Both the position numbers and the translations under genes were made by a program. This document shows positions 4,665 through 29,528 of a stretch of DNA of 64,000 nucleotides, in pieces (the first letter of the stretch is position 1; each line of letters starts with the position of its first letter). The stretch is from Spirosoma sp. SC4-14 (GTDB lineage: Bacteria; Bacteroidota; Bacteroidia; Cytophagales; Spirosomataceae): the NCBI RefSeq assembly GCF_037201965.1, contig NZ_CP147519.1, positions 62,001-126,000 on the forward strand. The letters are read 5' to 3'. Below the pieces are notes generated by a model. The model saw only the letters and a list, made by a program, of their open reading frames with translations, made no database searches and was not told the DNA's origin.

Positions 4665-5957
4665 ATGAGTTTATTTAACAAAACGGCCCAGTACCTTTTG
4701 CTAACTGCTCTGATCATTGCACTGGTTGGGTCGGTGGGATTTTACACCCTCATTCACCGGAAAATTCGCCACGAAGTGGATGAGATATTGACCAGCCAGG
4801 TTGAGCAGGCTCAACGTCGGCTTCAGAAACAGGATCCCGTGCGGCTTGGTGAGGGAGACGATAACCCGCATATTGAACCCGTCAATGAGCCAATCCGTTC
4901 TCAATTTAGTACCCAGCTGACCCTAGATTTTTTAGAACACAAAAGGCAGATTCCTATTCGGCAGTATCAGACATCTGTAGAGATTCGTGGGCAGCATTAT
5001 TTAGTAAGAGTTCGGCAACCCTATGATGAGTTTAATGAACTAGCAAGGGATTTGTCGATCTGGGTGATTATCGGCTTTTTGGCCCTAATGAGTTTGTCGG
5101 TCCTAATTGGGCTGGGCTTATCCAGCCGGTTATGGCGGCCTTTTTACTTAACGATCAAGCAGCTTGGCCAATTTAGGCTGGATCAGTCCGCCAATCCCCA
5201 GTTTCCCCAGGCTCGGGTTCGAGAATTCGATCTATTGAACCGGTCGTTAGGCGAATTAACCCAGAAACTACGGCAGCAATTTTCCTTGCAAAAACAATTT
5301 ACCGAAAATGCATCCCATGAATTGCAAACGCCTTTAGCCATCGCGTCAGCTGAACTGGATTTTTTACTCCAGTCACAACATCTGAGTGAGACTGACCATA
5401 CTCATCTTCAACGGGCAACGGATGCCTTGAGTCGACTCAGCCAGTTAAACCGATCGCTCTTACTGCTCACACAGGTAGACAATGATCAGTTTGCCGAAGA
5501 TGAGCTGGTGGATCTAGGTGATGTACTGACAACATACCTACTTGATTTTGAGCCATTTTTCGATCATAAGCAATTTGTGGTTACGCTGGATATCCAACCA
5601 GGTGTTCAACTTCAGATGAATCGCCAATTGGTTGGTGTGTTGCTGACCAATCTGTTAAAAAATACGGCCCGTCATTGTAAGACGGGTGGGCAAGTTTCGA
5701 TTTCGCTAACGACAACTTCACTAACGATTCGCAATTCAGGAGAGCCGCTTCCTTTTGCTCAAAGTCAGTTATTTAATCGATTTGTCAAGGATCCGGCCAG
5801 GCCCGATTCCATTGGATTAGGATTGGCTCTGATCAAGCAGATCTGTGATCGGTACGGATTGCCCTTGACTTATCAATATGACTCAGCTCATCAGGAGCAT
5901 GCCTTCCAGATCGAATTCAAGGCTATTCAAGCCAATAACTTCAAATTTGCTTCATAA
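4665..5957 (+). CDS. Sensor histidine kinase (HisKA/HATPase_c), orphan
   Basis: Inner-membrane sensor kinase of 430 residues. It has a transmembrane helix at about 10-30, a short extracytoplasmic region, a second helix at about 131-153, a linker, the HisKA H box FTENASHELQTP (His218), an N box (NLLKNTARHC) and a G box (SIGLGLALIKQIC). It is clearly paralogous to the kinase at 28224-29489: same length class, same helix positions, and the shared pattern QKQFT(E/D)NASHE(L/M)QTPL. That paralogue has its OmpR-type regulator next to it; this one has none on either side. It may use the regulator at 27547 or one outside the window. The TonB receptor gene starts 35 bases after its stop codon. Confidence 0.93.
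   Translation: MSLFNKTAQYLLLTALIIALVGSVGFYTLIHRKIRHEVDEILTSQVEQAQRRLQKQDPVRLGEGDDNPHIEPVNEPIRSQFSTQLTLDFLEHKRQIPIRQYQTSVEIRGQHYLVRVRQPYDEFNELARDLSIWVIIGFLALMSLSVLIGLGLSSRLWRPFYLTIKQLGQFRLDQSANPQFPQARVREFDLLNRSLGELTQKLRQQFSLQKQFTENASHELQTPLAIASAELDFLLQSQHLSETDHTHLQRATDALSRLSQLNRSLLLLTQVDNDQFAEDELVDLGDVLTTYLLDFEPFFDHKQFVVTLDIQPGVQLQMNRQLVGVLLTNLLKNTARHCKTGGQVSISLTTTSLTIRNSGEPLPFAQSQLFNRFVKDPARPDSIGLGLALIKQICDRYGLPLTYQYDSAHQEHAFQIEFKAIQANNFKFAS
5939..5954 (+). promoter_or_regulatory. CTTCA-N6-CTTCA box upstream of the TonB receptor
   Basis: CTTCAAATTTGCTTCA covers the last codons of the kinase gene and ends 38 bases before the TonB-receptor ATG. The direct repeat with an 11-base period matches the usual geometry of OmpR-family regulator sites. 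The same element occurs upstream of four other genes in the window. Confidence 0.55.
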
Positions 5958-5992
5958 TTCATGGCGATACTTGTCGATAGATAGTGTTCCCG

Positions 5993-8194
5993 ATGAAACA
6001 ACTTATTTTTTTTAGCTGGCTGATGATCACAGCTGCACCGGCATTTAGCCAGTCTTCCCGAATTATTCGGGTGCAAGATAGTACGACACATGAACCTATT
6101 ATTGGGGCCACGATTCGTACGCCATCCACTATAAAACCACTCATAGGAACGGTTACCGATGCAAAAGGTGTAGCCACGATGCCCAGCACGCCCGCGAGTG
6201 TTACCGCGCTGACGGTAAGTGCTGTTGGGTACGAAACGGAATCATTTCCGATTACTTCCGGTAGCGATACATTGGTTTTTCAATTACATAGCCAAGATGA
6301 ATCGCTGGATGAAGTGACCGTTACCTCTACTCGAACGAATTCCCGCATTGAGGATTTGCCCATTAAAGTGGAAGTGCTGGGTCAGGAAGATATGGATGAA
6401 GAAAGTGCAGTCGTTCCCGGCAATGTAAGCAGTATTCTGGGCGATATTTCCATCATTCACGTTCAACGTACCTCGGCTGTCAATGGAAACCAGGCCATTC
6501 GTATGCAGGGACTCGACCCTAAATATACCCAGATTTTGCGTGATGGTCTACCGCTTTACGAAGGGTTTTCGGGGAACCTGGGCGTTTTGCAAATACCCCC
6601 GCTCGATTTAAAGCAAATTGAAGTCGTGAAAGGCTCGGTGTCAACGCTGTACGGCGGAGGAGCCATTGGGGGGATGATCAATATCGTTTCTAAATCGCCG
6701 ACATCGGAAACACCGGAATTTACAGCCCTGCTCAACCGGTCGAACCTGAAAGAAACGAACCTGAATGCCTACTATTCACAACGCTACGGCAAAACCGGCC
6801 TGACGCTCTTTACGGGATATACCAATCAACAGGCAGTGGATGTAACAGGTGACGGATTTACGGATAGCCCTGGCATCAAGCAATTTAATTTTCATCCTAA
6901 GTTTTTCTGGAATCCCACCGCTCATACGAAGCTGGACATTGGGTATGCGTTTACGACGGAAAATCGCACGGGTGGATACCTACCAGCACTTGAGGGGACG
7001 CAGCCTAATGCCTACAAAAACGTAACGGACTTACAGCGTCATACCGTCGATTTCAACGCCAGTCACAATACCTCGGAAGCGAATGCGCTGACATTAAAAG
7101 GAGCGGTTAGTACCTTTCACCGGCAAAATACGGATTATCAGAAACTATCTGACGGTCGGCAGTCGTCGATTTATCTGGAAGCCAATGACTTGGTACGATT
7201 TGGCAAGCACCAGCTGATCGCTGGGGCAAACCTGACGGTCGAAGCGTTTCGTAAGAACCCGGACAGTACTCGGCTGGTCGATTATACCTATAATACGATC
7301 GGTGGATTTGTGCAGGACGATTGGCAAGTTGGCCAGAAGGTTGCCTTACAAGCCGGGCTTCGATTTGACCGCCACAATACCTTCGGAAGTTTCTTTCTGC
7401 CTCGATTATCAGTAAAAATCAAACCCTCCGACCCCTTGACAGTGAGGCTGAGCGTAGGTACAGGCTACAAAACACCCAATTTGTTTGTTAACCAAACACC
7501 GGGTGCGTTAAACGTGAGTTTGATTTTCCCCCGTTTGCTGCCCATTGATGTCGCTACAGTAAAAGCCGAGCGGTCCGTCGGTACCAACATCGACATCGCC
7601 TATTCAAAAACTTTCGAGAGTGGTTTTTCGGTACAAGTGGATCAGGCATTTTATTACACTTACGTCAATTCGCCCGTAGTGTCAGCATTTTCCAGTTTGT
7701 CGAGTAACCTAGGAGCTTATACCCAGCTGATTAATGCCCCATACAATTTATACAGCCTTGGGACAGACACGTACGTTCGGCTTGAATATAAAGACTACGA
7801 ACTGTATTTCGGCTACAATCATACACTCGCCCGGCGGGATGGTCCAACGGATAATACGTACCTGCCGCTGGCTCCTCAGGACAAGTTTTCAACCACGCTG
7901 GCCTGGGAAAACGAACACTTCCGGTTTGGCATCGAGAGCAGTTACGTAGGCACGCAATACCTCTACAACAACCAGAAAGTGGCGAATTACTGGTTCTTTG
8001 CCGCAGCGGCTGAATACCATTACAATGATCACTGGCGGCTGGTCCTGAACGGCGAAAATATCTTCAATGTGAAACAGGCTAACTACGAAACGGTAGTGCT
8101 GGGTACTAATCCGACAGTACAACCCACCTTTCGTCCGGTCTGGGCACCACTCGAAGGTCGGATAGTGAATCTGGCGCTCAAGTTCACGTTATAA
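5993..8194 (+). CDS. TonB-dependent outer-membrane receptor
   Basis: Ligand-gated outer-membrane receptor of 733 residues. It has a signal peptide ending near AAPAFSQ (about residue 20), a carboxypeptidase-regulatory-like domain (about 23-100: DSTTHEPIIGATI, GTVTDAKGVATMP), a plug domain (about 105-230: DEVTVTSTRTNSRIEDLPIKVEV, IRMQGLDPKYTQILRDGLPLYEG, VVKGSVSTLYGGGAIGGMINIVSK) and a 22-strand-type barrel ending in the aromatic-rich LNLALKF-like terminus. The ATG at 5993 was chosen over a GTG at 5984 because the signal peptide begins there. The substrate is unknown; the size and plug resemble siderophore, metal or vitamin receptors more than SusC. A CTTCA box lies just upstream, and the gene ends at a strong terminator. 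Confidence 0.93.
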   Translation: MKQLIFFSWLMITAAPAFSQSSRIIRVQDSTTHEPIIGATIRTPSTIKPLIGTVTDAKGVATMPSTPASVTALTVSAVGYETESFPITSGSDTLVFQLHSQDESLDEVTVTSTRTNSRIEDLPIKVEVLGQEDMDEESAVVPGNVSSILGDISIIHVQRTSAVNGNQAIRMQGLDPKYTQILRDGLPLYEGFSGNLGVLQIPPLDLKQIEVVKGSVSTLYGGGAIGGMINIVSKSPTSETPEFTALLNRSNLKETNLNAYYSQRYGKTGLTLFTGYTNQQAVDVTGDGFTDSPGIKQFNFHPKFFWNPTAHTKLDIGYAFTTENRTGGYLPALEGTQPNAYKNVTDLQRHTVDFNASHNTSEANALTLKGAVSTFHRQNTDYQKLSDGRQSSIYLEANDLVRFGKHQLIAGANLTVEAFRKNPDSTRLVDYTYNTIGGFVQDDWQVGQKVALQAGLRFDRHNTFGSFFLPRLSVKIKPSDPLTVRLSVGTGYKTPNLFVNQTPGALNVSLIFPRLLPIDVATVKAERSVGTNIDIAYSKTFESGFSVQVDQAFYYTYVNSPVVSAFSSLSSNLGAYTQLINAPYNLYSLGTDTYVRLEYKDYELYFGYNHTLARRDGPTDNTYLPLAPQDKFSTTLAWENEHFRFGIESSYVGTQYLYNNQKVANYWFFAAAAEYHYNDHWRLVLNGENIFNVKQANYETVVLGTNPTVQPTFRPVWAPLEGRIVNLALKFTL

Positions 8195-8197
8195 GGC

Positions 8198-8234
8198 AAA
8201 CACCCATAAAGTCTCACCTTTTTGGGTGTTTTTT
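8198..8234. terminator. Intrinsic terminator between convergent genes
   Basis: AAACACCCA (8198-8206) pairs perfectly with TGGGTGTTT (8223-8231) and is followed by more Ts to 8234. It lies just after the TonB-receptor stop codon, and the T-run overlaps the stop codon of the convergent TSUP gene. Confidence 0.85.
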
Positions 8235-9348
8235 ATACCATTCTGCGGATGAACGGTAAGCTATATATATCAAACTTTTCGAGTCTTCCTTTCCGGTAGA
8301 CATACTCCTCATACGAATGCTTATGAATAGCAAATACTTCTTCCAAAACCACCTTGTCCGCTCCCCGACTGAGTGCTTTGGCTTTGATTTGCTTGTCTAA
8401 GGGAAGTTCATCGAGCGGAATACTGTGCTCGAATTCAAATCCTTCATCGTACTCAAACTCCAGTGAAAACAGGTTATTCCGCCACTGAAGCTGCGTGGTC
8501 ATACCGCTGGATAAGGGAGAATAATCAAGATCAATAGGGGTTTGAGTAACAATTTGGTCCGCAGCTTCGGTAAATAAACTCAAGCCTGATACAACCATCG
8601 CAGCATAACCGATTCGGCGGAAGAGCCCTTCACTCAAATGAGGTAATAGCCACTTCATGCCATAGGAGGAAATCATCGCTGCCAAAGCGATTACTCCACC
8701 CAGCGTGAGCGCTTTACCCGTTATTAGCCCAAAAGATGCATACAAGGACAGTTTAACTAGGTGTATTATAACTTCATTGGCCGCCCGGGTAGCAACAATT
8801 TCCTCTTTATTCATGCCATAACGCAGGTAGAATCGGTTGAATAGCAATCCAACGGCACCCGTTAGGCCCGAGACAAAACCTGCTGCCAAGCCTATAAGGG
8901 CCAAATACCCTTTCGGCAGGGGATGAACTTGGGCTAACTCCTTTGCAGAACGAAAAATCAACGGCAGGTTAGCCATCAGAAACAAACCCATTACTAGTTC
9001 CAGATAGAGTGGGTTGATATACGTCAGCAGCCTGGCACCTACATAGACGGCGGGTAGGGCAGGAGGGACAAACCAAGCCACAACCTCCCAGCGAATACGA
9101 GACCAGAAAGCCGTAATTCGGGACATGGAACTGGAAGCAATACCAATGGAGAGCGCAGCTGGAACTTGTGCGCTCGGTAGCAGAGAGCCTAATACGGGTA
9201 ATAATAACAAACCAGCCCCTCCTCCACATACGGCGCTGAGCGAGAAAGCCAGTAAGGCGCAACCACATAAAAATAATCCGGAGAAGAACATAAAAACAGG
9301 GCCTAATTTAGTATCAATTTTCTCGTTTAGGCGTATGCTGCCATTCAC
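8233..9348 (-). CDS. TSUP (TauE/SafE) family permease with C-terminal soluble domain
   Basis: Polytopic inner-membrane protein of 371 residues. About 8 hydrophobic helices occupy residues 15-265, with the TSUP half-repeats (ALLAFSLSAVCGGGAGLLLLP and GLAAGFVSGLTGAVGLLFNRFYLRYG). Family members export sulfite, sulfoacetate or other small anions. A charged segment of about 100 residues (270-371) after the last helix is longer than the usual TSUP tail and is predicted cytoplasmic. The 5' end overlaps the PAP2 gene by 35 bases; an ATG at 9291 would avoid the overlap and still keep the first helix. Both genes probably share one transcript. Confidence 0.85.
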   Translation of the reverse strand: MNGSIRLNEKIDTKLGPVFMFFSGLFLCGCALLAFSLSAVCGGGAGLLLLPVLGSLLPSAQVPAALSIGIASSSMSRITAFWSRIRWEVVAWFVPPALPAVYVGARLLTYINPLYLELVMGLFLMANLPLIFRSAKELAQVHPLPKGYLALIGLAAGFVSGLTGAVGLLFNRFYLRYGMNKEEIVATRAANEVIIHLVKLSLYASFGLITGKALTLGGVIALAAMISSYGMKWLLPHLSEGLFRRIGYAAMVVSGLSLFTEAADQIVTQTPIDLDYSPLSSGMTTQLQWRNNLFSLEFEYDEGFEFEHSIPLDELPLDKQIKAKALSRGADKVVLEEVFAIHKHSYEEYVYRKGRLEKFDIYSLPFIRRMV

Positions 9349-10063
9349 TCAGCACAATACCTACAATGAGCCAGCAGGCCCCTAATAAATAACCGCCCAC
9401 TACATCGCTCAAGAAATGAACACCCAGATAAATCCGACTAAAACCAACTACCAAAACCAATCCGACGGCACAGCTACCTACCAGCCATCGGCTTCGAAGC
9501 CGGCGACGGCCTCGAACCAGCCAGTAGCCCAGTAAACCATACAAGGTCATGGCCGTAGCCGAATGGCCGCTCGGAAAAGAATAACCAGATTCTGTATAAT
9601 AACCAACCTCTACAGGGCGCTTCCGAATGAAGGTTCGTTTGCCGACCTGAACGAATAAACCCACTCCCGCCATTAATAGCCATAGAATTAAAATGTTACG
9701 CCCTTTTTTCTGTTGGTACAGCACAAACGATCCAAGGAGAGTTAATCCAATCGTTACGTAGCCAGAACCTAGCCACGTTATAGTATAGAGCAACTGGCTG
9801 ATCGAGGTACTTCGTTCCCTAAACAGCCACTGAGTAAATCCTTGGTCGACCTGGACCATCGGCTCCGAATTGACCAGATTTTCGGCAATCTCAGAAAGAA
9901 TCATGACGTTGCCAATCAGTAATCCCAGGAGCACCGTAAGCGGTAAACCTCGGAAATGGTCTGTCGACAAACGTTCGGCAATCCAGCGAACTAATGCCGG
10001 GTACCGAATGCTTATTTGGCTAAATCGGCGATGAATAAGGTGTTGAATTCGGTCAGTTGTCAT
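9314..10063 (-). CDS. PAP2-family membrane phosphatase
   Basis: Integral membrane phosphatase of 249 residues with the complete PAP2 signature: KRTFIRKRP (motif 1), YSFPSGHSATA (motif 2) and SRIYLGVHFLSDV (motif 3, with catalytic His and Asp). Five to six helices surround the motifs. Family members dephosphorylate undecaprenyl pyrophosphate, phosphatidic acid or other lipid phosphates at the outer face of the inner membrane. Three directly repeated CTTs at an 11-base period lie upstream, facing this gene. A second PAP2 gene with the same upstream element lies at 26579-27316. The TSUP gene overlaps its 3' end. Confidence 0.92.
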   Translation of the reverse strand: MTTDRIQHLIHRRFSQISIRYPALVRWIAERLSTDHFRGLPLTVLLGLLIGNVMILSEIAENLVNSEPMVQVDQGFTQWLFRERSTSISQLLYTITWLGSGYVTIGLTLLGSFVLYQQKKGRNILILWLLMAGVGLFVQVGKRTFIRKRPVEVGYYTESGYSFPSGHSATAMTLYGLLGYWLVRGRRRLRSRWLVGSCAVGLVLVVGFSRIYLGVHFLSDVVGGYLLGACWLIVGIVLSEWQHTPKREN

Positions 10064-10101
10064 AGAATCAATTGGCCCATGAACAGGCCAGTTCTGACAG
10101 C

Positions 10102-10135
10102 AAACTAACGTAAGCTTTCTGAAGAGACTTTGAAG
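10102..10135 (-). promoter_or_regulatory. CTTCA-N6-CTTCA-type box upstream of the first PAP2 gene
   Basis: Read on the minus strand, 10135-10120 is CTTCAAAGTCTCTTCA, with a further CTT 11 bases on. The 34-base segment matches 27 of 34 bases in 27415-27448, which lies upstream of the second PAP2 gene in the same orientation. The proximal edge of the core box is 57 bases from the PAP2 start codon. Confidence 0.6.
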
Positions 10136-10233
10136 TGATCATTCATATGGAGTGTAGGAATACTTTACCGGCCTGAGAAAATCTCGAATCTATGTTATTA
10201 TAATGTAATTAATGAAAGGAGAAGTTGAACGGA

Positions 10234-10277
10234 TTTCAGAACAGCTTCATTTCTGAGAAAACTTCAGAATTGCTTCA
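10234..10277 (+). promoter_or_regulatory. Two CTTCA-type boxes upstream of a truncated outer-membrane gene
   Basis: TTTCAGAACAGCTTCA (10234-10249) and CTTCAGAATTGCTTCA (10262-10277) are two copies of the same direct-repeat element, 28 bases apart start to start. The second ends 26 bases before the ATG at 10304. Orientation is toward that gene. Confidence 0.55.
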
Positions 10278-10303
10278 AGTTTGACCAGCACTTTAGGGTC
10301 ATT

Positions 10304-10646
10304 ATGAAGACAGTACTCCGTCTTATTAATCTTTTTACGCTGCTTGCCTGGGCCACGCCAACCGTTGCACAACAACCTGTACCAAATAACCACCTAACGG
10401 GGAAAGTACTGGACGCGACAACTGCTCAGGCGTTACCTTTTGCATCCGTCGCGATTTTTAAACAAATAAACGGGAAAGATAGCCTGTTGACGGGTGCTCA
10501 AACCGATGAGCAGGGTGCTTTTATCATTACCAACGTGCCTACCGGATCGCTGTTGGCCAAGGTTACGTTTGTAGGCTATCAGAATCTGAATAAAGCTATT
10601 TTATAAACTATCGATTCAGTTGCCATTAGGCAATGATACCGTAAAA
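10304..10646 (+). pseudogene. Truncated outer-membrane beta-barrel protein gene (N-terminal fragment)
   Basis: The open part (10304-10606, 100 residues) encodes a signal peptide (ending near TVAQQ) and a carboxypeptidase-regulatory-like domain: HLTGKVLDATTAQALPFASVAIF, DEQGAFIITNVPTGSLLAKVTFVGYQ. This is how large TonB-linked or outer-membrane beta-barrel proteins such as the one at 30218-32746 begin. The frame then stops; just after, in the +1 frame, the residues QLPLGNDTVK look like a continuation, which points to a frameshift followed by loss of the plug and barrel. It may still make a short secreted peptide. Its upstream CTTCA boxes are intact. A genuine small secreted protein is the alternative. 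Confidence 0.65.
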
Positions 10647-10909
10647 TGTAACCAACGGAAAATGGAACGTCCCGACGTGGACTTCAGCAACTAACCAAAC
10701 CCACCATACTATCGCCATAACCGCGAGACCGTCTTAAAAAAACAGTCGAGTAGCTATGGCTTTTATTATAAAAATATTTAATATTAATTAATTGTAAATT
10801 ACTTATTATCAAATAGTTAAATTGACAAAACAATCCATTATATCTTAGAAATGCCCTATAGTTTTGTAGCTGAAAAAGGACGGGGTAGTTTCCTTTTTCG
10901 TACGAACCA
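10647..10909 (+). promoter_or_regulatory. AT-rich leader of the phosphatase/TonB operon with -7-like element
   Basis: AT-rich sequence with no gene. TAGTTTTG at 10859-10866 fits the Bacteroidota -7 consensus TAnnTTTG and lies 43 bases before the ATG at 10910. No clear -33 TTTG is found at the usual distance, so the promoter call is tentative. Confidence 0.35.
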
Positions 10910-11938: not shown

Positions 11939-11971
11939 GTCGCCGAGGAAATATCCAATATCCAAGTAGTC

Positions 11972-12946: not shown

Positions 12947-12974
12947 TAACTAACAACCATTTGACACCATACCT

Positions 12975-15743: not shown

Positions 15744-15789
15744 TTACCCTCCAATCAATCAGTTACTTTTTATTTAACAACCAACTCGA

Positions 15790-18769: not shown

Positions 18770-18808
18770 TTCAAACCTAGGTAGCCAGTCTGGTAAGTCG
18801 AGTGATTT

Positions 18809-18858: not shown

Positions 18859-18878
18859 GGATATCGATCATTTACAAG

Positions 18879-18887
18879 TAATTTATA
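18879..18887. repeat. Left copy of the IS982 target-site duplication
   Basis: TAATTTATA, identical to 19814-19822 on the other side of the element. Confidence 0.85.
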
Positions 18888-19813: not shown

Positions 19814-19822
19814 TAATTTATA
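19814..19822. repeat. Right copy of the IS982 target-site duplication
   Basis: TAATTTATA, identical to 18879-18887. It includes the stop codon of the decayed EamA gene on the minus strand. Confidence 0.85.
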
Positions 19823-20085: not shown

Positions 20086-20173
20086 AATTTAGACAGATAG
20101 AAGGGAGTTAGTTGTACCGAAGCTCTCTTTATAGTTCTTAGAAAAACCTTCTACAAAAGACAGTCTGAACTCT

Positions 20174-21190: not shown

Positions 21191-21229
21191 ACAAGGTTGA
21201 TTTAGTTTATTAGTGATCACTGGGTTAAC

Positions 21230-24200
21230 TCATTTGTCTTTATAGGCTAAGCGTAATAATCCGGGGAAAATCAGGAGAAGTAGGGGCAACGCGGCACAAA
21301 ATCCACCAATCACGGCAATAGCTAAGGGTTGGTGGAGCTGGGCCCCTGTTCCAATACCTAATGCCAGCGGCATCAGGGCAATAATGGCACTGGTAGCCGT
21401 CATCAATTTAGGCCGGATACGCGCTGAAATGGCAAACGCAATAGATTCAGCAACCGGGGCCGTCTGATGGTGAATGGCGAACTGCTGAAACGTGAAAATG
21501 GCATTCTCGGCAATGATGCCCACAATCATAATAATACCCGTATAGCTGCCGACGTTGAGGGGAGTTTTGGTGATGAAGAGCGCCATAAATGAGCCCGACA
21601 CACCCAGGACCGAGATCAGCAGAATCAGCCCCGCAGCTTTTAAATCCCTGAACAGGAACAGGAGTACGATGAACACTAGCAATGAAGCCGATATCAGGAT
21701 AATCAATAACTCCCGAAAGGACTGTTGCTGCTGCGCGTACGCTCCTCCGTAATCGATGTGTTTACCCGCAGTCAGCGTGATACCACTGCTTACCTTTTGC
21801 TGAATTTCCTTGATTACACTGCCCAGATCGCGATTCGCCAGGCTGGCAGTAACGGCAACCATCGGTTGCAGATTTTCCCGTTGAATTTCGGCCGTTCCTG
21901 AGTCGATTCGTACAGTGGCAAAATCAGCCAGGAGACGACTGCGGCCATCGGCGGTAAAAATCGGACTTTGTTTGAGGAGTTGTAAATCGCTTCCCATGCC
22001 CGGATACTTCAACCGCATTTTGATGAATTGGCTGCCTTCCAGAATATTGCCCACGTCGTTGCCAACCAGGTAGGTTGTTAGCTGATTTTGTAGATCTAAG
22101 GGTACAAGTCCATATTGCAGTAAGGCGCTGGATTTCGGACTGAATATGACGGAAGGGCCGGCGATGGTGATGCCATTGAAGACATCGGCCGTGCCGGGTA
22201 CCTGGCTAACAATTCCACTGATTTTATCGGCCAGCGGGCGCAATTCGGTGGGCTGGTCGCCAAACACTTTAACTTCGACGGGATTGGGTTCACTCATCAA
22301 ATCGCCGAGCATATCGCCAATTACCTGCCCAAAGTCAACCGTTAGACCCGGCTGGGTAGCTTCGATTTTACCGCGCAGCTCGTCGATCACTTCGTTGGTA
22401 GGGCGGGTACGGTCTTTTTTGAGCGAGATCAGATAATCCCCTCCGTTGGGTTCGGTAATAAAAAAGCCCATCTGGGCCCCCGTTCGCCGGGAATAGCTGG
22501 CTACCTCCGGTATCGTCTTTATTAATTGATCGACCTCCGTGAGCATGACGTTGGTTTCATCCAGCGATGTGCCGGGTTCGGAGTGGTAGTCCAGAACGAT
22601 CGAGCCTTCGTCCATATCGGGTAGAAATCCTGTTTCTAACTGGCTATAAATCAGAAAGACAGCCAGCGCCATTGCGCTCACCAGGCCCAGGGCAATCCAG
22701 GGGCGATGAATGAACAGGGACAGGATGTTGCCAATGGCGGGATGGGTAGCGGCATCTTTCTGCTTTTTCCTGGAAGACCCCAGTAGGCTGTACAAGACGG
22801 GCAGTCCCAACCAGGTAATTAAAAACGAGCAGGTGAGGGTTACGACCATGGTTGTGGCCAGCACTTTGAAAAAAGCCCCGGCTACACCACTCATCAGTGA
22901 GAACGGAATAAATATGACAATGGTACTCAGTGACGAGCCGATCATGGCGGGAAATAGGTAGCGGATGGCGGTCTGAATGGTGTTGGCGTCAGACTGCCCT
23001 TCATGTTCTTCTTCTACCCGGTGAATTTGCTCTACAATCACGACCGCATCGTCGATAATCAGCCCAATACCCGCAGCTATTCCGCCAAGTGTCATGATAT
23101 CGAGCGTGTAGCCCATAACGTAAAGAACAACCATCGCGGCACCCAGAATGATAGGAATCGTAATAAGGATAACCGTACTGGCCTTGAGCGACCGTAGAAA
23201 CAAACTGGTGACAATAATGGCCAGTGCCAACCCAATAAAAATGCTGTCAGTCACGCTCTTAACCGCATCACTAACAAAGTCAGCCTGAACATACGTAGGT
23301 GTTAATGTAACATCGGCAGGTAGCAATTTGGTAAGTTCCTGTACTTTATGGTTGATGTCTTTACTGAGATTGATTAAGTTAGCCGACGGCTGTTTGACCA
23401 CATTGACGAGGACGGTTTCTTTACCATTTGCTTCGATTTTGGTGAATTCCTGCTGCTCATGCAGTTCCACCGTTGCTACGTCAGCCAGGCGGAGTACCCG
23501 TTGCCCATCGCTGCGAATGATGATGTTTTCGACATCCTGTTTCGAGTGAACCGTTGCGTCGGTAAGGGTCAGGTATAGACGATTATAACCCGAAACCATT
23601 CCGTCGGCCTGGATAAAATTGGTTGCAGCCAGCGCGGTCGTGATGGCCGCTGGTGTTACGTTCAGACTTGCCAGTTTATTGGGCTGGAGAACGATCCAGT
23701 ATTCTTTGGTACGCCCACCCATCACCTGTATGTTCGATACACCCGTTACCCGGCTCAAATAGGGTCGGATGGTGTACATAGCTAACTTTCGCAGTTCAAT
23801 CAAATCACGACTGTTCGAAGTCAGCGCAAAATCCATCACCGGCAGAATCGATGGCGACATTTTCTCTACAGACAGGTTCGTATTAGGCAATAGCGTATTC
23901 TGAATCTGGTTGATGCGGGCATTGACGCGCTGCAACGATACATCCATATCCACCGACCAGTTCAAATAAATCGACAGTTCGGAACTACCCCGACTGGTGG
24001 TGCTACGAACCATTTCAACCCCTTCTACTTGATTGACGGCATTTTCGAGCGGCTGGGTAATGGCGATCATCATGAGTTCAACGGGCTGCTCACCGGCATC
24101 GGCAATGACCTTAATTTTGGGAAACGTCTTTTCGGGAAACAAGGAAACCTGAATCTGCCGGTAGGCGAAAAGCCCTCCCACCAGCAGTAGGATGAGTACC

Positions 24201-24250
24201 CCCAGAATTGGCTTTCGATATCGGTAAAAACCAGGCTGTTCAGTGGGCAT
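21230..24250 (-). CDS. RND-family efflux permease
   Basis: Inner-membrane proton-driven pump of the AcrB/HAE type, 1006 residues. It has helix 1 at about 12-30, a first periplasmic porter domain, helices 2-6 at about 330-480, helix 7 near 520-540, a second porter domain and five C-terminal helices. The proton-relay acidic pair is in AAGIGLIIDDAVVIVEQIHR near residue 400. This pattern fits drug or organic-solute pumps rather than the heavy-metal subgroup. It overlaps the adaptor gene by 11 bases and forms the inner-membrane part of the TolC/adaptor/RND tripartite pump. Substrate unknown. Confidence 0.95.
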   Translation of the reverse strand: MPTEQPGFYRYRKPILGVLILLLVGGLFAYRQIQVSLFPEKTFPKIKVIADAGEQPVELMMIAITQPLENAVNQVEGVEMVRSTTSRGSSELSIYLNWSVDMDVSLQRVNARINQIQNTLLPNTNLSVEKMSPSILPVMDFALTSNSRDLIELRKLAMYTIRPYLSRVTGVSNIQVMGGRTKEYWIVLQPNKLASLNVTPAAITTALAATNFIQADGMVSGYNRLYLTLTDATVHSKQDVENIIIRSDGQRVLRLADVATVELHEQQEFTKIEANGKETVLVNVVKQPSANLINLSKDINHKVQELTKLLPADVTLTPTYVQADFVSDAVKSVTDSIFIGLALAIIVTSLFLRSLKASTVILITIPIILGAAMVVLYVMGYTLDIMTLGGIAAGIGLIIDDAVVIVEQIHRVEEEHEGQSDANTIQTAIRYLFPAMIGSSLSTIVIFIPFSLMSGVAGAFFKVLATTMVVTLTCSFLITWLGLPVLYSLLGSSRKKQKDAATHPAIGNILSLFIHRPWIALGLVSAMALAVFLIYSQLETGFLPDMDEGSIVLDYHSEPGTSLDETNVMLTEVDQLIKTIPEVASYSRRTGAQMGFFITEPNGGDYLISLKKDRTRPTNEVIDELRGKIEATQPGLTVDFGQVIGDMLGDLMSEPNPVEVKVFGDQPTELRPLADKISGIVSQVPGTADVFNGITIAGPSVIFSPKSSALLQYGLVPLDLQNQLTTYLVGNDVGNILEGSQFIKMRLKYPGMGSDLQLLKQSPIFTADGRSRLLADFATVRIDSGTAEIQRENLQPMVAVTASLANRDLGSVIKEIQQKVSSGITLTAGKHIDYGGAYAQQQQSFRELLIILISASLLVFIVLLFLFRDLKAAGLILLISVLGVSGSFMALFITKTPLNVGSYTGIIMIVGIIAENAIFTFQQFAIHHQTAPVAESIAFAISARIRPKLMTATSAIIALMPLALGIGTGAQLHQPLAIAVIGGFCAALPLLLLIFPGLLRLAYKDK

Positions 24251-25211
24251 GGGTGGGACGATTTATGGTGATCGATGCCTTATCAGCCAGGCCATACCCC
24301 CCTTTGCTGACAAAGCGATCCTGTGGCTTAAATCGGGGGCTAAGAATTTCAATACGTGTTTCGCGCTGGAGACCAATTTTGATGGGGACTTTAACGGCGG
24401 TGGTATCGTTAAGTAGCTTCATGACCCAGAATTCGGTCTGGAGTTCGTTGGCCAGAACGGCGTCCTTGGGCAACGACTGCGCCTGGTTATGCTGCTGCTG
24501 GGTAAACGTAATAGCCAGTTGAAGACGGGCTGGCAGTACCATCGGGTGGTCGGGTTTAATGACGAATCGCTCGGTTTGGGAGAGCGAATCAGCGATGGCG
24601 AGCGTGCGGAAAATTCGCCCGCCAATGCGCCGACCATTCGGCAATTGAATGCTGCATACGCTGCCCACATGCACCGCTGTGTCCTGTTCAACGGGCACCT
24701 CGATTAGAAAGACAAACATGTCGGGAGCCGAAAAGGTGGCCAGCACAGTGCCGTCCTGCACATACTCATTCTCCTCCGCCTGCACCAATGTAACCAGACC
24801 CGCGTCCGGAGCACGGATGGTCAGTTTGCCAATGTCTTTAAGCGTTGGATCATTGAGGTAATTTTTACCACCGAGCGCGTAGGTTTCCTTGGTTTCCAGG
24901 CCAAATAAAGGGGTTCCTTTCTGGAGCTTGTCACCAATTTTGACGTATACTTTAGTCACGTAGCCAGCAATCGGCGATTTAATATCGCCACTAGTGAGAT
25001 AGTACGTCATACCCCGAAACGTTTTTTCAACCCGAAACGAATCGGCTTTAACGGTCGTGATATCAACGGGCGTTTTGGGGTTCGGCGCGTTGGAGTCAGC
25101 CGATTGCGAACCTGAACTTGTATCGGTCGTTGACAACGAGCCGCAGCCGGTTAGAAGTAGCGCCAGAAGCAGTCCGAAGGGATACATTGGGTTTATCATA
25201 CGTTGAGGCAT
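24240..25211 (-). CDS. RND periplasmic adaptor (membrane fusion) lipoprotein
   Basis: Periplasmic adaptor of 323 residues joining pump and TolC channel. The N-terminus MYPFGLLLALLLTGCGS has a good lipobox (Cys about 23), a Ser/Thr-rich linker follows, then the lipoyl/barrel-sandwich halves (GDIKSPIAGYVTKVYVKIGDKLQKGTPLFGLE and APDAGLVTLVQAEENEYVQDGTVLATFS) with little coiled coil between them, and a beta-barrel domain. The short hairpin makes it smaller than AcrA. The start at 25211 is two bases after the TolC gene; Met5 and Met9 are possible alternatives. It overlaps the permease gene by 11 bases. Confidence 0.92.
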   Translation of the reverse strand: MPQRMINPMYPFGLLLALLLTGCGSLSTTDTSSGSQSADSNAPNPKTPVDITTVKADSFRVEKTFRGMTYYLTSGDIKSPIAGYVTKVYVKIGDKLQKGTPLFGLETKETYALGGKNYLNDPTLKDIGKLTIRAPDAGLVTLVQAEENEYVQDGTVLATFSAPDMFVFLIEVPVEQDTAVHVGSVCSIQLPNGRRIGGRIFRTLAIADSLSQTERFVIKPDHPMVLPARLQLAITFTQQQHNQAQSLPKDAVLANELQTEFWVMKLLNDTTAVKVPIKIGLQRETRIEILSPRFKPQDRFVSKGGYGLADKASITINRPTHAH

Positions 25212-25213
25212 GG

Positions 25214-26473
25214 TTAGAAATTACGATAGTTGAACGTGTTGATAAACCGTTGCCGCTGAATGATTAATTGATTCAGGGTTAGCTTACTATTCAGAAAGCG
25301 CTGCACAATGAGCAGGTAATCAATAGCCGATATGTCGCCCCGGTACAGTCGGGCCTGACTGATCGTCAATAAATTTTCGACGTCAGTATTTTGCCGTTCG
25401 GTGATACTTATCAGGTTCTGATTGACGCGTAATTGCTCATTGACCGTTCGCAGCTGCAAATTGAATCGGTTGAGGTACTGATTCCGATAATTCCGAATGG
25501 TTAGCTGCTCGACGTCGAGTTTCTGGTATTGCAGCTTTCGCTGATTTCCATTATAGATGGGCATGGTAAAATTCAGGCCGATGCTATAACCAAGCCGTTT
25601 GGTAATCAAATCTGAGCTGATGGCATTGGTCCCTGCATTGGCTACCAGATCCAGCGAGGGGCGATAAAAAATATCGATAACCCGGCGATTCCGTTCCACA
25701 ATCACGCTGTCGTACCGGTAGCGTAATAAATAGGGGTTGTCGTCGGGCATAAATCGGGCCTCTAGTGCGAGATCGGGTTTTTCAAGTCGTACGAGCCCCG
25801 TTTCAGGGATATTGCAGAGTGTGTTAAGGGTTAGAATATCCTGCAAAAACTGTACTTTGGCGCCTTCATAGTTCACTTCGCTCTGTTGCCAGTCGACCCG
25901 AAACGCCAGGTAGTCTGACTGATTGAATAAGGCTTTCCGAAGCAGTTCTTTCAATACCTCGTTTTGTCGAGAAAAAATCTGGTACAAATCCCCAAAAATG
26001 ACCATCTGCTGATAATCCTGATAGGCCGTCAGGTAGAGATCGACAATGGATTTCTGGAGATCATTCTGATTGATACGAACGGTATTGACTAGCAAATCGC
26101 GAAGAGCAGCATTTAGCGCATTCTGGATTCGAAGGTTTCGGCGGTAAAGCAGGTTTCGGTTCGCCTGAATTAGCCCCGTGTACGCTCCGCCATTGGTCGT
26201 CGCCTGATCGTAGCCCCAGTTTGTGCCAGCCGGTGCGTACAGGTATTGCCCGATGGCCTGCACAAAGGGTTTGTTGGTCGCAATGTTGAGTAGACTGTCG
26301 AGCCTGTTCAAGGTAATGGCGTTGCTATTCTCTTTCAGCAGTGGGCTGTTAGCCAGTCCCTGATCCAGGTAATACGCCAGGTTTCGGTGAGCCAGCGTAT
26401 CCTGTCCATAGCTGGAAATGGCTTGAAAGACAAACCAGAAACTTACCCATATGACTCGTTTATATAGTTGCAT
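25214..26473 (-). CDS. TolC-family outer-membrane channel
   Basis: Outer-membrane efflux protein of 419 residues. Signal peptide ends near AISSYGQ (about 23). Two OEP-type repeats of long amphipathic helices follow (about 30-215 and 235-415), with QANRNLLYRRNLRIQNALNAALRD and KLQYQKLDVEQLTIRNYRNQYLNRFNLQLRTV-type helix patterns (quoted in parts). It is the first gene of the minus-strand efflux operon TolC, adaptor, RND, propeller. No CTTCA box is seen in the 105 bases before it, unlike the neighbouring PAP2 gene. Confidence 0.9.
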   Translation of the reverse strand: MQLYKRVIWVSFWFVFQAISSYGQDTLAHRNLAYYLDQGLANSPLLKENSNAITLNRLDSLLNIATNKPFVQAIGQYLYAPAGTNWGYDQATTNGGAYTGLIQANRNLLYRRNLRIQNALNAALRDLLVNTVRINQNDLQKSIVDLYLTAYQDYQQMVIFGDLYQIFSRQNEVLKELLRKALFNQSDYLAFRVDWQQSEVNYEGAKVQFLQDILTLNTLCNIPETGLVRLEKPDLALEARFMPDDNPYLLRYRYDSVIVERNRRVIDIFYRPSLDLVANAGTNAISSDLITKRLGYSIGLNFTMPIYNGNQRKLQYQKLDVEQLTIRNYRNQYLNRFNLQLRTVNEQLRVNQNLISITERQNTDVENLLTISQARLYRGDISAIDYLLIVQRFLNSKLTLNQLIIQRQRFINTFNYRNF

Positions 26474-26578
26474 AGAACCTGTTTAAAAGGCTTCATTCCG
26501 TTGAACTAAATGGAGCTTTTTTCATGATAGTCATTTTTCTGGTTATCAAGCCTATCGCTAGTCGCCTATGCATCCAAA

Positions 26579-27316
26579 TCAATGAGGGGTAACTTTATGC
26601 CGACTGAATTTGCGTTTCAGCCATGGATAGGCCCGATACGCTACTTCAGTAGAGAGTAGCCCAATACCCGCTCCCACCAGTACATCTGAAACCCAGTGTC
26701 GATCATTCGTCATTCGTAAAAGGCCGGTCGTTGTGGCCATAGTATACCCCCCAATGGGAATCCAGGGGCTAACGTCACGAAACTCCCGATCCAGCAAACT
26801 CGCTCCTGTAAACGCATTGGCCGTATGACCCGATGGAAATGAGTACATATCCGTTCCATCGGGCCGTAGTTCATTCGTGGCATGTTTCAATCCGAAAACC
26901 GCGACAGTACTCATTCCATAGGCAAGCAGGCCAATAAACACCCGATCAAGGAGTTGCGAGTGACCTTTGATGCCTGCTACACTCAAACCCGCCCAGGCTA
27001 TAGCCGGTCCATATTGCAGATAATCGTCTGCATGCGTGCGGAAATGAATGGTAGCCTGCAGCTCACTCCGAACATAAAACCGATCGAAGTGACTGTTAGG
27101 ATAATTGGGGGATAAGGCTAATCCCGTACCGGTCAGCACCGCTGGAGCGACCCATCGAAATGTAGGGAAACCAGCAGAGAGGCTATCCTTGGACGCTGAT
27201 TGAAATTTGTTAGTTACGGGTTGCCCATTGGCGGTGACCAGTGAAAATAGAAAAAGCCAACTGAGCAGCAGCCAGTAAAAAAAAAGCGTATTAAATCGCC
27301 TGCTTGGTTTGGTCAT
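26579..27316 (-). CDS. PAP2-family phosphatase with signal sequence (second copy)
   Basis: Membrane-associated phosphatase of 245 residues. An N-terminal hydrophobic segment (about 10-32) looks like a signal peptide or anchor. The PAP2 motifs are present as ATNELRPDGTDMYSFPSGHTANAF (motifs 1 and 2, with KH..NELRP in place of the usual KxxxxxxRP) and NDRHWVSDVLVGAGIGL (motif 3, R-H-x3-D type). Such proteins act on lipid phosphates or on released phosphoesters in the periplasm. The ATG at 27316 was preferred to one 51 codons upstream because the hydrophobic segment begins there. It is divergent from the OmpR-type regulator gene, and the CTTCA-type box between them faces this gene. Confidence 0.88.
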   Translation of the reverse strand: MTKPSRRFNTLFFYWLLLSWLFLFSLVTANGQPVTNKFQSASKDSLSAGFPTFRWVAPAVLTGTGLALSPNYPNSHFDRFYVRSELQATIHFRTHADDYLQYGPAIAWAGLSVAGIKGHSQLLDRVFIGLLAYGMSTVAVFGLKHATNELRPDGTDMYSFPSGHTANAFTGASLLDREFRDVSPWIPIGGYTMATTTGLLRMTNDRHWVSDVLVGAGIGLLSTEVAYRAYPWLKRKFSRHKVTPH

Positions 27317-27421
27317 TCGAAAAGTCAGTTTATTTTCCTTTACTACGTACTCCGCGCCGGTGGGGTGGGGTCGATCAGAACAGATTACTCTGGCAGGGAA
27401 GGAATGGCGGGAGTAAACTAA

Positions 27422-27448
27422 CGGAAGAATCCTAAAGAGAATCTGAAG
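27422..27448 (-). promoter_or_regulatory. CTTCA-N6-CTTTA-type box between the second PAP2 gene and the regulator gene
   Basis: On the minus strand 27448-27433 reads CTTCAGATTCTCTTTA, with CTTC a further 11 bases on. The wider 34-base segment 27415-27448 matches 10102-10135 at 27 positions. It faces the PAP2 gene (117 bases from its ATG) and lies about 100 bases from the regulator ATG, so it could also serve for autoregulation. Confidence 0.6.
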
Positions 27449-27512
27449 TTTGTTAGTAAAAGATGCCAAATGGAGAGGCCGAAACCAACTTCAAAATGTA
27501 TTCAGTTTTGGC

Positions 27513-27545
27513 CCCTTCCTTTGGAAAAATAAGCCAAAGGAAGGG
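27513..27545 (+). promoter_or_regulatory. 12-bp perfect hairpin covering the ribosome-binding region of the regulator gene
   Basis: CCCTTCCTTTGG (27513-27524) pairs perfectly with CCAAAGGAAGGG (27534-27545) across a 9-base loop. The right arm ends one base before the ATG at 27547 and contains the only purine-rich Shine-Dalgarno-like sequence (AAGGAAGGG), so the stem would hide it. It could control translation of the regulator. Confidence 0.6.
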
Positions 27546-27546
27546 C

Positions 27547-28224
27547 ATGAAAATTTTGCTGATTGAAGATGAACCGTCACTACTGGGTGCTATGCGGCAA
27601 TATCTGGAGGGGGAACATTACAACGTATCGACCGCGGATAATTTCCGCGCAGCCTCCCTGAAGGTGCACGATTATGCCTACGATTGTATTATAGTAGATA
27701 TTACCCTGCCCGATGGCAATGGATTAGCGATTGTGAAAGAACTGAAGGAAGTGCATTCGCAGGCCGGAATTATTATCGTCTCGGCAAAGAATTCGCTGGA
27801 TGATAAACTATCAGGACTGGAACTAGGAGCTGACGACTACCTGACCAAACCCTTTCATTTGCCCGAACTCAACGCCCGTATTCGCTCGCTGATGCGCAGG
27901 CGACAGCACGAAGGGGAAATGAATCTCGTGTTTGGAGCGATTACGGTGATTCCCTCCCGCAAACAGGTTCAGGTAGGCAATCAGCCGGTCGATCTGACCG
28001 TGAAGGAATATGAACTGCTGCTATTTTTGGCCACCAATAAAAATCGTCTCTTATCAAAAGCCGTCATTGTTGAACACGTTTGGGGCGATTATATGGACGG
28101 ATTCGATTCCCACGATTTTCTGTATACCCATGTGCGGAATCTCCGCAAAAAACTACTTGATGCGGGCGGCCCGGATTACATCACCACGCGCTACGGGGCT
28201 GGCTACATTTTCACGGTAGGCTAA
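27547..28224 (+). CDS. OmpR/PhoB-family response regulator
   Basis: Cytoplasmic regulator of 225 residues. The receiver domain has acidic residues in LLIEDEPS, phospho-acceptor Asp51 (IIVDITLPDGNG), the conserved Ser/Thr in IIVSAK and Lys101 (DDYLTKPFHL). A winged-helix DNA-binding domain covers about 128-224 (DLTVKEYELLLFLATN, LLSKAVIVEHVWG, HVRNLRKKLLDAGGPDYITTRYGAGYIF). The ATG at 27547 was chosen over one at 27463 since the receiver domain starts there. Its stop overlaps the kinase start by one base (TAATG), so the pair is co-translated. OmpR-type proteins bind direct repeats with 10-11 base spacing, which makes it the best candidate to bind the CTTCA boxes. Confidence 0.95.
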   Translation: MKILLIEDEPSLLGAMRQYLEGEHYNVSTADNFRAASLKVHDYAYDCIIVDITLPDGNGLAIVKELKEVHSQAGIIIVSAKNSLDDKLSGLELGADDYLTKPFHLPELNARIRSLMRRRQHEGEMNLVFGAITVIPSRKQVQVGNQPVDLTVKEYELLLFLATNKNRLLSKAVIVEHVWGDYMDGFDSHDFLYTHVRNLRKKLLDAGGPDYITTRYGAGYIFTVG

Positions 28225-29489
28225 TGAAACTACTTCATAAAACCACACTCTATCTACTGCTGGCAGCCTTGCCGATTGCGTTGGCGGGTATTTTTGTGCT
28301 AAACGGGTTTATTCACCGGGATCTGGTACACGAGATTGACGAGCTACTGGCCAATGAGCTTACGCAGGTGCAGGAGCAACTTGGAAGGCATCCACCTAAT
28401 GCTGCAGATCTGCCCGGCTGGGACCCTAATGTTCAGATCACGCTGACATTAGTCCCCCGGCATTCATCTCCCATCTATATTGATACAGTTGTTACAACAT
28501 TAAGCGACAAAGAACCTTCCCTTGTTCGAATGCTGCTGGCAACCCACTCGGTGGGGAATCGCCACTACCAAATTGCGCTGCAACAGTCGTATCTGGAGTT
28601 TGATGAAATCGCCCAGACTTTATCCGTAGGGGTGATTGTCTGTTTCCTGGTTGTGCTGGCCCTATTGGTACTAGCCGATATTCTGGTGACTCGGCGCATC
28701 TGGCAACCTTTTTACGGAATTATCCGGCAATTGAAACAGTACCGGATCGACGGCCCGGATGACGCAGCCTTTCCGACCAGCGATGTTTACGAGTTTACAT
28801 TGCTAAGTCAATCCTTCGATGAGATGAGCCGCCGATCTCGCCGTCAGTACGCCCAGCAGAAGCAATTTACCGACAATGCGTCACACGAGATGCAGACGCC
28901 TTTAAGTGTGCTTTCATTCGAATTAGACTTGCTGCTTCAGTCGGAAAGACTAAACGAAGCGGACCTTGACCACATTCAGCGTTCCCAGCAGGCCGTTAAG
29001 CGACTCTCGGCCATGAATCAGTCGCTACTCTTGCTAGCCAGGATTGATAATCAGCAATTTATCCACAATGAATCCGTGGCGCTGGTAGAACTTGTCGATC
29101 AGATAATAACCGGATATTCCGACTATGCAACCCACAAAGGAATAACCCTTAAACGCCTCTTTACGCAGCAGCCCAGCCGTCTTATGAACCGGCAATTGGC
29201 CGATGTTCTCTTTTCAAATCTGATCAAAAACGCGATTCGCCATGGTGATCCGAATAGTTCGATCCTAGTTCAGATCGGATCGAACCAGTTCATGATCACC
29301 AATCAGGGCGACCCGCTTCCGTTTCCAGTCGAGCAATTGTTTGATCGGTTTGTCCGCAATCAAGCCTTGCCGCAGTCCACGGGTCTGGGCTTAGCCCTGG
29401 TCAAAGAAATTGCTGAGCAGTATGGCATGAAGGTACATTATTCCTACTTGGCAACCCAGCGTCGGCACCTGTTTCAGGTGGATTTCTGA
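28224..29489 (+). CDS. Sensor histidine kinase partner of the OmpR-type regulator
   Basis: Inner-membrane kinase of 421 residues. Transmembrane helices at about 9-30 and 133-155 flank a roughly 100-residue periplasmic sensor segment with no recognised domain. The H box is FTDNASHEMQTPL (His221), the N box NLIKNAIRHG and the G box STGLGLALVKEIAEQYG. It is closely related to the orphan kinase at 4665-5957, but the periplasmic segments differ, which suggests different signals. A CTTCA-type box and a PepSY-like gene follow directly. Confidence 0.94.
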   Translation: MKLLHKTTLYLLLAALPIALAGIFVLNGFIHRDLVHEIDELLANELTQVQEQLGRHPPNAADLPGWDPNVQITLTLVPRHSSPIYIDTVVTTLSDKEPSLVRMLLATHSVGNRHYQIALQQSYLEFDEIAQTLSVGVIVCFLVVLALLVLADILVTRRIWQPFYGIIRQLKQYRIDGPDDAAFPTSDVYEFTLLSQSFDEMSRRSRRQYAQQKQFTDNASHEMQTPLSVLSFELDLLLQSERLNEADLDHIQRSQQAVKRLSAMNQSLLLLARIDNQQFIHNESVALVELVDQIITGYSDYATHKGITLKRLFTQQPSRLMNRQLADVLFSNLIKNAIRHGDPNSSILVQIGSNQFMITNQGDPLPFPVEQLFDRFVRNQALPQSTGLGLALVKEIAEQYGMKVHYSYLATQRRHLFQVDF

Positions 29490-29512
29490 GTTAAGGCGCC
29501 TAACGGCTACAA

Positions 29513-29528
29513 CTTCAAAATTACTTTA
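29513..29528 (+). promoter_or_regulatory. CTTCA-N6-CTTTA box upstream of the PepSY-like gene
   Basis: CTTCAAAATTACTTTA ends 46 bases before the ATG at 29575 and points toward it. Same 11-base direct-repeat geometry as at 5939, 10120, 10262 and 27433. Confidence 0.55.

Follow-up and report, generated by a model that had tools for sequence, protein, structure and literature searches.

Introduction

What reads a short direct repeat, CTTCA-N6-CTTYA, that recurs ahead of envelope and regulator genes in a 64,000-nucleotide stretch of the Spirosoma sp. SC4-14 genome? The stretch (contig NZ_CP147519.1, positions 62,001 to 126,000; hereafter the window, whose own numbering is used unless a contig, C1 or C2, is named) lies on the smaller, 348-kb contig of a two-contig genome of 8.1 Mb. 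Two genomes of the same genus carry the cluster of boxes on contigs taken as plasmids, CP001770 (S. linguale) and NZ_CP089544 (S. oryzicola), and the 348-kb contig is probably a plasmid. An initial annotation of the window had proposed the repeats as operators of an undescribed OmpR-type two-component regulon. Judged from sequence comparison, the boxes are very likely the operators of an OmpR/PhoB-family response regulator (RR), RR1, with a PorY-family histidine kinase (HK), HK1, which would activate an envelope-homeostasis regulon common to plasmid and chromosomal copies. The earlier proposal was thus supported on four counts: the boxes are conserved in orthologs, one stands before the regulator gene itself, they occur in the genomes that have the regulator class, and a motif search done blind beyond the genus led to the same kind of operon. 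It was incomplete in omitting a chromosomal paralog, RR2, and a near-fixed linkage of the boxes to a promoter -7 element.

Results

The box and its extended form

A search for the exact pattern returned five sites, with the coordinates and strands given by the initial annotation, and five were never reached in 100 dinucleotide shuffles of the window (mean 0.19, standard deviation 0.44, maximum 2). Each box faces a gene, namely those of a TonB receptor, a PAP2 phosphatase, a remnant of an outer-membrane protein (OMP), a second PAP2 phosphatase and a PepSY-like protein; the box at 5939 overlaps the final codons of the kinase gene 4665-5957. The annotated near copy at 10234 is present, and a second near copy that had been overlooked, CTTCAAAATGTATTCA at 27489-27504, lies ahead of the regulator gene and is among the best-conserved sites. 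A scan of the window allowing one mismatch gave 13 sites versus 7.5 expected. The two PAP2 sites do share 27 of 34 bases; the third CTT, read there as continuing the 11-base period, starts 10 bases past the second, the three being at positions 1, 12 and 22, and is not kept in the orthologs of the first PAP2 gene (PAP2-1), so that a third repeat was rejected.

Genome-wide, the bare pattern is unspecific. It had 44 exact matches versus 25 for the pattern read backwards, and of the 39 matches outside the window, 29 fell inside open reading frames (ORFs), 9 were intergenic and 1 overlapped an ORF in part, as assigned by greedy longest-ORF calls rather than by annotation. Equal density inside genes, which the initial annotation had named as an argument against a regulon, therefore holds in part for the bare pattern, and this pattern was rejected as a genome-wide predictor. 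Five of the 44 matches fall within the 64 kb of the window (binomial p 2.6e-5); since the outside matches are mostly in ORFs, it is this cluster, not the bare pattern alone, that supports a regulon.

An extended motif was derived from 53 sites in other genomes (19 TonB, 9 PAP2-1, 9 PAP2-2, 9 RR and 7 PepSY promoters), selected with at most one mismatch to the pattern (at most two for PAP2-2, none for PepSY). Positions outside the selection were fixed as well: T9 in 53 of 53 sites, T20 in 52 and T33 in all 53. Because T9 and T20 are fixed without having been selected on, the repeated element is the entire 11-bp unit, and the motif is a tandem repeat, CTTCARAWTYN twice. At the six window sites, the first half-site is CTTCA and the second CTTYA or ATTCA. 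A sequence-only model, R1, built from the 53 sites without any site of the own genome, was then run on the 8.1-Mb genome and gave eight sites at E <=0.042, the next match having an E value of 0.67. Six of the eight are in the window, listed here together with the regulator and kinase genes that lie among them:

5939..5954, plus strand: predicted operator box CTTCAAATTTGCTTCA, before the TonB receptor gene; CTTG starts 15 bases past the box
10120..10135, minus strand: predicted operator box CTTCAAAGTCTCTTCA, before PAP2-1; TTTG starts 15 bases past the box; R1 match
10262..10277, plus strand: predicted operator box CTTCAGAATTGCTTCA, before the OMP remnant; R1 E 0.042
27433..27448, minus strand: predicted operator box CTTCAGATTCTCTTTA, before PAP2-2; R1 E 2.4e-7; TTTA starts 15 bases past the box
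27489..27504, plus strand: predicted operator box CTTCAAAATGTATTCA, before the regulator gene (predicted autoregulation); R1 E 5.8e-7; TTTG at 27520
27547..28224, plus strand: RR1, OmpR/PhoB-family response regulator; Response_reg and Trans_reg_C (Pfam)
28224..29489, plus strand: HK1, PorY-family histidine kinase; NF052314 404.9 bits, cut-off 350
29513..29528, plus strand: predicted operator box CTTCAAAATTACTTTA, before the PepSY-like gene; TTTA starts 15 bases past the box; R1 match

The 5939 box (R1 match C2:67935-67973, E 2.1e-5) is kept in orthologs. The two remaining sites are chromosomal: C1:4208489 precedes a third PAP2 gene (68% identity to PAP2-1), and C1:5456350 precedes a second TonB receptor (85% identity) located after the chromosomal RR2-HK2 pair. 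The genome-wide search suggested by the initial annotation thus yields eight sites ahead of envelope and regulator genes once the extended motif is used, and the objection of equal density inside genes fails for this motif. Note that orthologous or paralogous promoters of seven of the eight sites were in the training set; the 10262 type was absent from it, that set holding no promoter of this gene, whose relatives in four genomes have the box.

Two other chromosomal genes have exact pattern matches ahead. The PepSY-like gene behind C1:5986781 has no R1 match and was left out of the targets. At C1:6306010-6306801, a gene for a secreted, OB-fold-like protein of 264 aa without a Pfam match has an exact box (C1:6306853) and a -7 element ahead, where R1 finds no site. 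Its 24 ortholog loci comprise 1 exact (own), 6 one-mismatch and 14 two-mismatch sites (0, 0 and 7 for the reversed motif), and the degenerate form in the orthologs is perhaps the site of a related regulator.

Promoter geometry

The sigma-ABfr promoter of Bacteroidota has TAnnTTTG at -7 and TTTG near -33 (PMC7366714). A YTTR begins at +15 after the box in 45 of the 53 foreign sites and in seven of the eight sites of the own genome. The exception is the 10262 site ahead of the broken gene; intact relatives of that gene have TTTG at +15 in three of four genomes. The complete TAnnTTTG was found in six of the seven PepSY promoters of the training set. A TAnnTTTG-like -7 element, as in sigma-ABfr promoters, hence accompanies the box at a near-fixed distance, starting 11-12 bases after it, and the difference from the promoter described in PMC7366714 is that the operator occupies the place of the -33 element.

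Conservation in Spirosoma

RR1 was searched in 36 Spirosoma genomes. Two diverging boxes lie between PAP2-2 and the RR gene in nine loci, of which one is the window's own and eight are orthologous, with 84-88% identity; the RR-side box is identical in all nine, the PAP2-2 box is within one mismatch in eight, and the PepSY box is exact in eight. In the alignment of these loci, the intergenic DNA around the boxes is visibly less alike than the boxes. Among the other 21 RR loci, which are more distant or of the RR2 kind, a box within one mismatch lies behind the kinase in nine and faces the RR in one (L051), and one match faces the opposite way (L055).

The individual promoters were scanned likewise, own loci included. 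At PAP2-1, 10 of 12 loci had an exact box, placed at -71 to -73, and the remaining two were the least identical (63% and 59%). Ahead of TonB receptors the box was exact in 15 of 24 loci and had one mismatch in 5 more, and one further TonB box lies at a contig end (G035, L219). For PAP2-2, 3 of 15 loci were exact and 6 more had one mismatch. With the motif reversed, exact and one-mismatch matches numbered 0 and 8 (PAP2-1), 1 and 5 (TonB), and 0 and 1 (PAP2-2), the eight at PAP2-1 arising because CTTC-N7-CTTC resembles its own reverse. On the opposite strand, the respective numbers were 6 and 0, 0 and 0, and 0 and 9, and where inspected these matches were the diverging partner boxes, that is, 10262-type and RR-side sites. 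The comparison of related genomes proposed in the initial annotation therefore came out in its favour, the boxes being kept in orthologous Spirosoma promoters.

We also examined 27 R1 sites in other Spirosoma genomes. The genes behind them belong to the classes already described, including those of PAP2, RR and kinase. A site stands directly before TauE in G008, G003 and G013; before the ortholog of the OMP_b-brl_3 gene, with no PepSY gene between, in G018, G016 and G002; before a relative of the OMP remnant in G032, G004 and G005 (818 aa) and in G013 (811 aa); and before PepSY in G008, G003 and G015. Sites seen once precede a 276-aa protein without a Pfam match (G022) and a LytTR protein (G006), and no convincing gene was found behind three of the 27 sites (G006 45447, G003 99423 and G022 36337). 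In three genomes, G003 (where it was Pfam-tested), G016 and G023 (L331, L332 and L338), a box lies ahead of a similar protein of about 150 aa that is a receiver only; this protein is possibly a phosphate sink or connector in the pathway.

Co-occurrence of box and regulator class

The regulator class, defined as the RR1 or RR2 kind with a best RR match at E<1e-85, is present in 30 of the 36 genomes. An R1 match at E<=0.05 was found in 29 of these 30 genomes and in one of the six without the class (Fisher p 9e-5), and at E<=0.001 in 27 and none, respectively (p 4e-5). Intact TonB orthologs of at least 78% identity, counted at one locus per genome, have the box in 21 of 21 genomes with the class and in 0 of 2 without; in the latter, G020 and G034, neither the promoter scan nor R1 found a box ahead of the receptor (78-79% identity). 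What stands in the TonB promoter of these two genomes (L233 and L234) is a different repeat whose TTAAA cores are spaced by 11 bases; perhaps a different regulator has taken over there.

Four genomes (G002, G008, G015 and G016) lack a close RR1 ortholog, their best matches being of the RR2 kind at 58-63% identity, yet their PAP2 promoters, PepSY promoters or both retain boxes. At the RR1-type locus of G008, the regulator gene is missing and the kinase is partial, and all three boxes remain. The recognition helices of the own genome, DSHDFLYTHVRNLRKKL in RR1 and DSHEFLYTHMKNLRRKL in RR2, show four conservative differences. Given this nearly identical helix and the boxes kept without a close RR1, RR2 probably reads the same operator.

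Matches beyond the genus

In a search of 200 genomes of the family at a threshold of E<=0.002, R1 matched in 47, including 22 outside the genus with 25 matches, all of which were examined. Sixteen adjoin a homologous operon at a distance of up to 200 bases: five precede an RR1-homologous gene and eleven follow a homologous kinase. Another five precede genes for a TonB receptor, TolC-HlyD, OMP_b-brl_3, PepSY-like and beta-propeller-like proteins. The kinases of these genomes were called by homology, the PorY-model test covering the window kinases; L353 and L356 were read as promoter sites from ATG positions, and their genes were named by eye from protein starts and the gene behind. The reversed model, R2, used as a control on the 200 genomes, gave seven matches with a best E of 8e-4; none was in Spirosoma, and no homolog of a window gene was found among the compared neighbours of these seven.

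In five loci of another genus (L357, L358, L359, L367 and L368), the gene behind box and kinase begins alike. Trypsin-like and PDZ domains are present in the products of the two tested, L358 and L359; the single product compared with NCBIfam scores above the cut-off of the Do family (DegP/HtrA).

A more distant sample of Bacteroidota consisted of nine loci (L102-L110; 44-55% identity) out of 80 returned. A pattern scan of these nine that allowed at most one mismatch found, for the most part, no site where one was expected, and R1 gave weak but well-placed sites in three: two diverging sites before the regulator in L104 (Bacteroidales), one before a TonB receptor in L102 (Chitinophaga), and one before a small protein resembling YgiW by eye in L108 (another Bacteroidales).

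Comparison with known systems

The window has a response regulator with receiver and winged-helix domains beside a HisKA/HATPase kinase, and tandem direct repeats of about 11 bp ahead of the targets and of the regulator gene, as in OmpR/PhoB-family two-component systems. The PmrA (BasR) box of enterobacteria likewise consists of two head-to-tail half-sites, and PmrAB shares with this system an OmpR/PhoB-family regulator, the 11-bp period and CTT in the half-sites (PMC3973317). The half-sites differ, however, being CTTAAT/CCTAAG for PmrA and CTTCA/CTTYA with a conserved RAWT tail here, and with the PmrA equivalog RR1 reaches only 149.5 bits where the cut-off is 330. QseBC resembles the system in its OmpR-family regulator, in direct repeats, which are CTTAA-type in QseBC, and in self-regulation, predicted here (PMC10714720), and in the small YgiW-like gene after the kinase in L108, but has another half-site, and RR1 reaches 117.7 bits against a QseB cut-off of 345. 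Membership in PmrAB or QseBC was rejected, since CTTAA-type half-sites are absent and RR1 falls below both equivalog cut-offs.

Both window kinases exceed the NCBIfam cut-off for PorY of the PorXY system of Porphyromonas gingivalis. The partner here is an adjacent OmpR-type regulator, whereas PorX has an alkaline-phosphatase-like PglZ part (PMC8050853); RR1 has Response_reg and Trans_reg_C only, without a PglZ-type effector, and PorXY membership was rejected on this ground. No gene of the type IX secretion system was recognised among the targets at the eight own-genome R1 sites (PAP2, TonB, OMP, PepSY and RR genes), where no search aimed at this system was made. The system is therefore an OmpR/PhoB-family regulon, a kind already known, and is not PmrAB, QseBC or PorXY. 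The word undescribed in the initial annotation agrees with searches of open-licence literature, which listed no paper that, judged by title or start of abstract, describes this operator or regulon.

Other features of the window

The remaining genes that bear on the predicted regulon are the following:

4665..5957, plus strand: PorY-family histidine kinase with no response regulator gene adjoining; NF052314 422.8 bits, cut-off 350
5984..8194, plus strand: TonB-dependent receptor, predicted target; Pfam, orthologs
8233..9348, minus strand: TauE/SafE-type transporter behind PAP2-1, predicted target; Pfam, box directly ahead in three relatives
9314..10063, minus strand: PAP2 phosphatase PAP2-1, predicted target; Pfam
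10304..10691, plus strand: remnant of an OMP_b-brl_3 receptor gene; Pfam, comparison with an 818-aa relative
20174..26473, minus strand: genes for a beta-propeller-like protein, RND permease, HlyD adaptor and TolC-type channel behind PAP2-2; Pfam, spacing
26579..27316, minus strand: PAP2 phosphatase PAP2-2, predicted target; Pfam
29575..30030, plus strand: PepSY-like secreted protein, predicted target; PF11396
30170..32746, plus strand: OMP_b-brl_3 outer-membrane protein; Pfam, ortholog in three relatives has the box directly, without PepSY between

Both kinases, 4665-5957 and HK1, have HisKA and HATPase_c domains (Pfam). The former is 62.6% identical to the chromosomal kinase HK2 and is followed by a TonB paralog of HK2's receptor; kinase and receptor together resemble part of a copied RR-HK-TonB operon from which the RR is absent here. 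The OMP remnant is an internal deletion, with residues 1-101 and 788-818 of the 818-aa relative side by side and the middle gone, and the box ahead of it is retained despite the deletion. The TolC, HlyD, RND and beta-propeller-like genes are closely spaced on the strand of PAP2-2 and probably form one operon with it under the PAP2-2 box; one relative has a box before TolC-HlyD. The OMP_b-brl_3 gene at 30170 is probably co-transcribed with PepSY. Farther along, 33707-52858 encodes a FecR-type anti-sigma factor, a SusC/SusD-like pair, an FG-GAP/ASPIC protein, a further PAP2 protein and GH31/melibiase-like enzymes; this part resembles a glycan-use locus and has no good model matches.

Discussion

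The sequences themselves show the motif, the geometry of the promoters, the conservation of the boxes, their co-occurrence with the regulator class and their linkage to its operon. From these we infer that a signal received through the kinase would lead to phosphorylation of the regulator, two monomers of which would bind head to tail on the two 11-bp repeats, as reported for PmrA (PMC3973317). The box takes the -33 position, and the YTTR of the sigma-ABfr -7 element follows 15 bases after the end of its second repeat; because of this place at a near-fixed distance, the bound phosphorylated regulator would most likely recruit RNA polymerase at the -7 element and thereby activate transcription. 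PhoB activates at the pho box by a comparable arrangement. RR1 would in this way activate its own operon, with the PepSY and OMP_b-brl_3 proteins, and, in the window, PAP2-2 with the RND efflux operon, PAP2-1 with the TauE-type transporter, and the TonB receptor; the predicted chromosomal targets are the third PAP2 gene and the second TonB receptor. RR2 probably reads the same box, which would join plasmid and chromosomal copies in one regulon. To judge from the target classes and from the DegP/HtrA proteins of relatives, the response may serve envelope homeostasis or counter envelope stress.

Who reads the box could be answered differently: RR2, or another regulator of the class, might be the main reader, with RR1 a minor or redundant plasmid copy. 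The boxes kept in the four genomes without a close RR1 ortholog and the conservative differences between the recognition helices speak for this; the joint conservation with RR1 of the box before its gene and of the PepSY box behind HK1, and the retention of both regulator kinds in several genomes, speak against it, and we regard it as rather unlikely. Repression is a different matter. A regulator sitting over the -33 region could block transcription, and the overlap of the box with the expected -33 position agrees with this; no separate -33 TTTG is common to the promoters, however (the RR promoters have TTTTG after the box), and OmpR/PhoB-family boxes at the -33 place often activate, which makes a repressor site distinctly improbable.

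The near-fixed distance from the -7 element would also suit a constitutive promoter or UP-like element of the lineage that no regulator reads. Such an element should hardly be limited to eight good copies in 8.1 Mb, preceding few gene classes and occurring nearly only in genomes with the regulator class, and the two TonB orthologs of class-lacking genomes are without it; we give this explanation very little credence. Chance clustering of a short pattern, which the 44 genome-wide matches of the bare pattern, mostly in ORFs, might recommend, is refuted by the shuffles, by the independently trained R1 model, by the ortholog footprints and by the reversed control, and its probability is practically nil.

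Several observations weigh against operators of RR1 as the explanation or blur its outline. Most genome-wide matches of the bare pattern are within ORFs, as are four of the 25 matches outside the genus (L354, L355, L366 and L380), and the 10262 site serves a broken gene with a weak score (E 0.042). The Fisher tests overstate independence, as the genomes share ancestry. G031 has the regulator class and no R1 match, G017 and G021 have weak matches only, and G025, without the class, has one weak match (E 0.0045); a TonB gene of 52% identity in that genome is preceded by a degenerate site that is weak but well placed. In RR3 (C1:5587465), a third paralog, the recognition helix is similar as well, yet R1 matches nothing in the surrounding 9 kb; RR3 was for this reason rejected as a co-reader of the box, and helix similarity alone therefore does not fix the target. 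Finally, the envelope-stress label derives from gene classes, and the choice of activation over repression from geometry only.

With these points taken into account, operators of RR1, shared with RR2, are still the reading that we prefer. Envelope-stress control in Bacteroidota is far less described than in Proteobacteria, and no paper on such a system in Bacteroidota was found among the open-licence titles and starts of abstracts listed. The predicted response ties PAP2, PepSY, TonB-receptor, TauE and RND genes together, and regulator, operator, promoter geometry and a short target list are now directly testable. Operators retained after loss of the plasmid-type regulator offer a natural test of regulon sharing by paralogous systems. 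More tentatively, and with somewhat more doubt than confidence, a PorY-family kinase with an adjacent OmpR-type regulator may constitute a widespread envelope-stress system of Bacteroidota, a counterpart of Cpx, sigma-E or PmrAB in which the 11-bp-repeat operator is shared. The targets of this system would then vary by lineage among DegP/HtrA, TonB and OMP_b-brl_3 receptors, PAP2, PepSY, RND efflux and possibly OB-fold proteins; the common operator would cross-connect the chromosomal copy with a second one on plasmids; and PorX would not have been the ancestral partner of the Porphyromonas kinase PorY.

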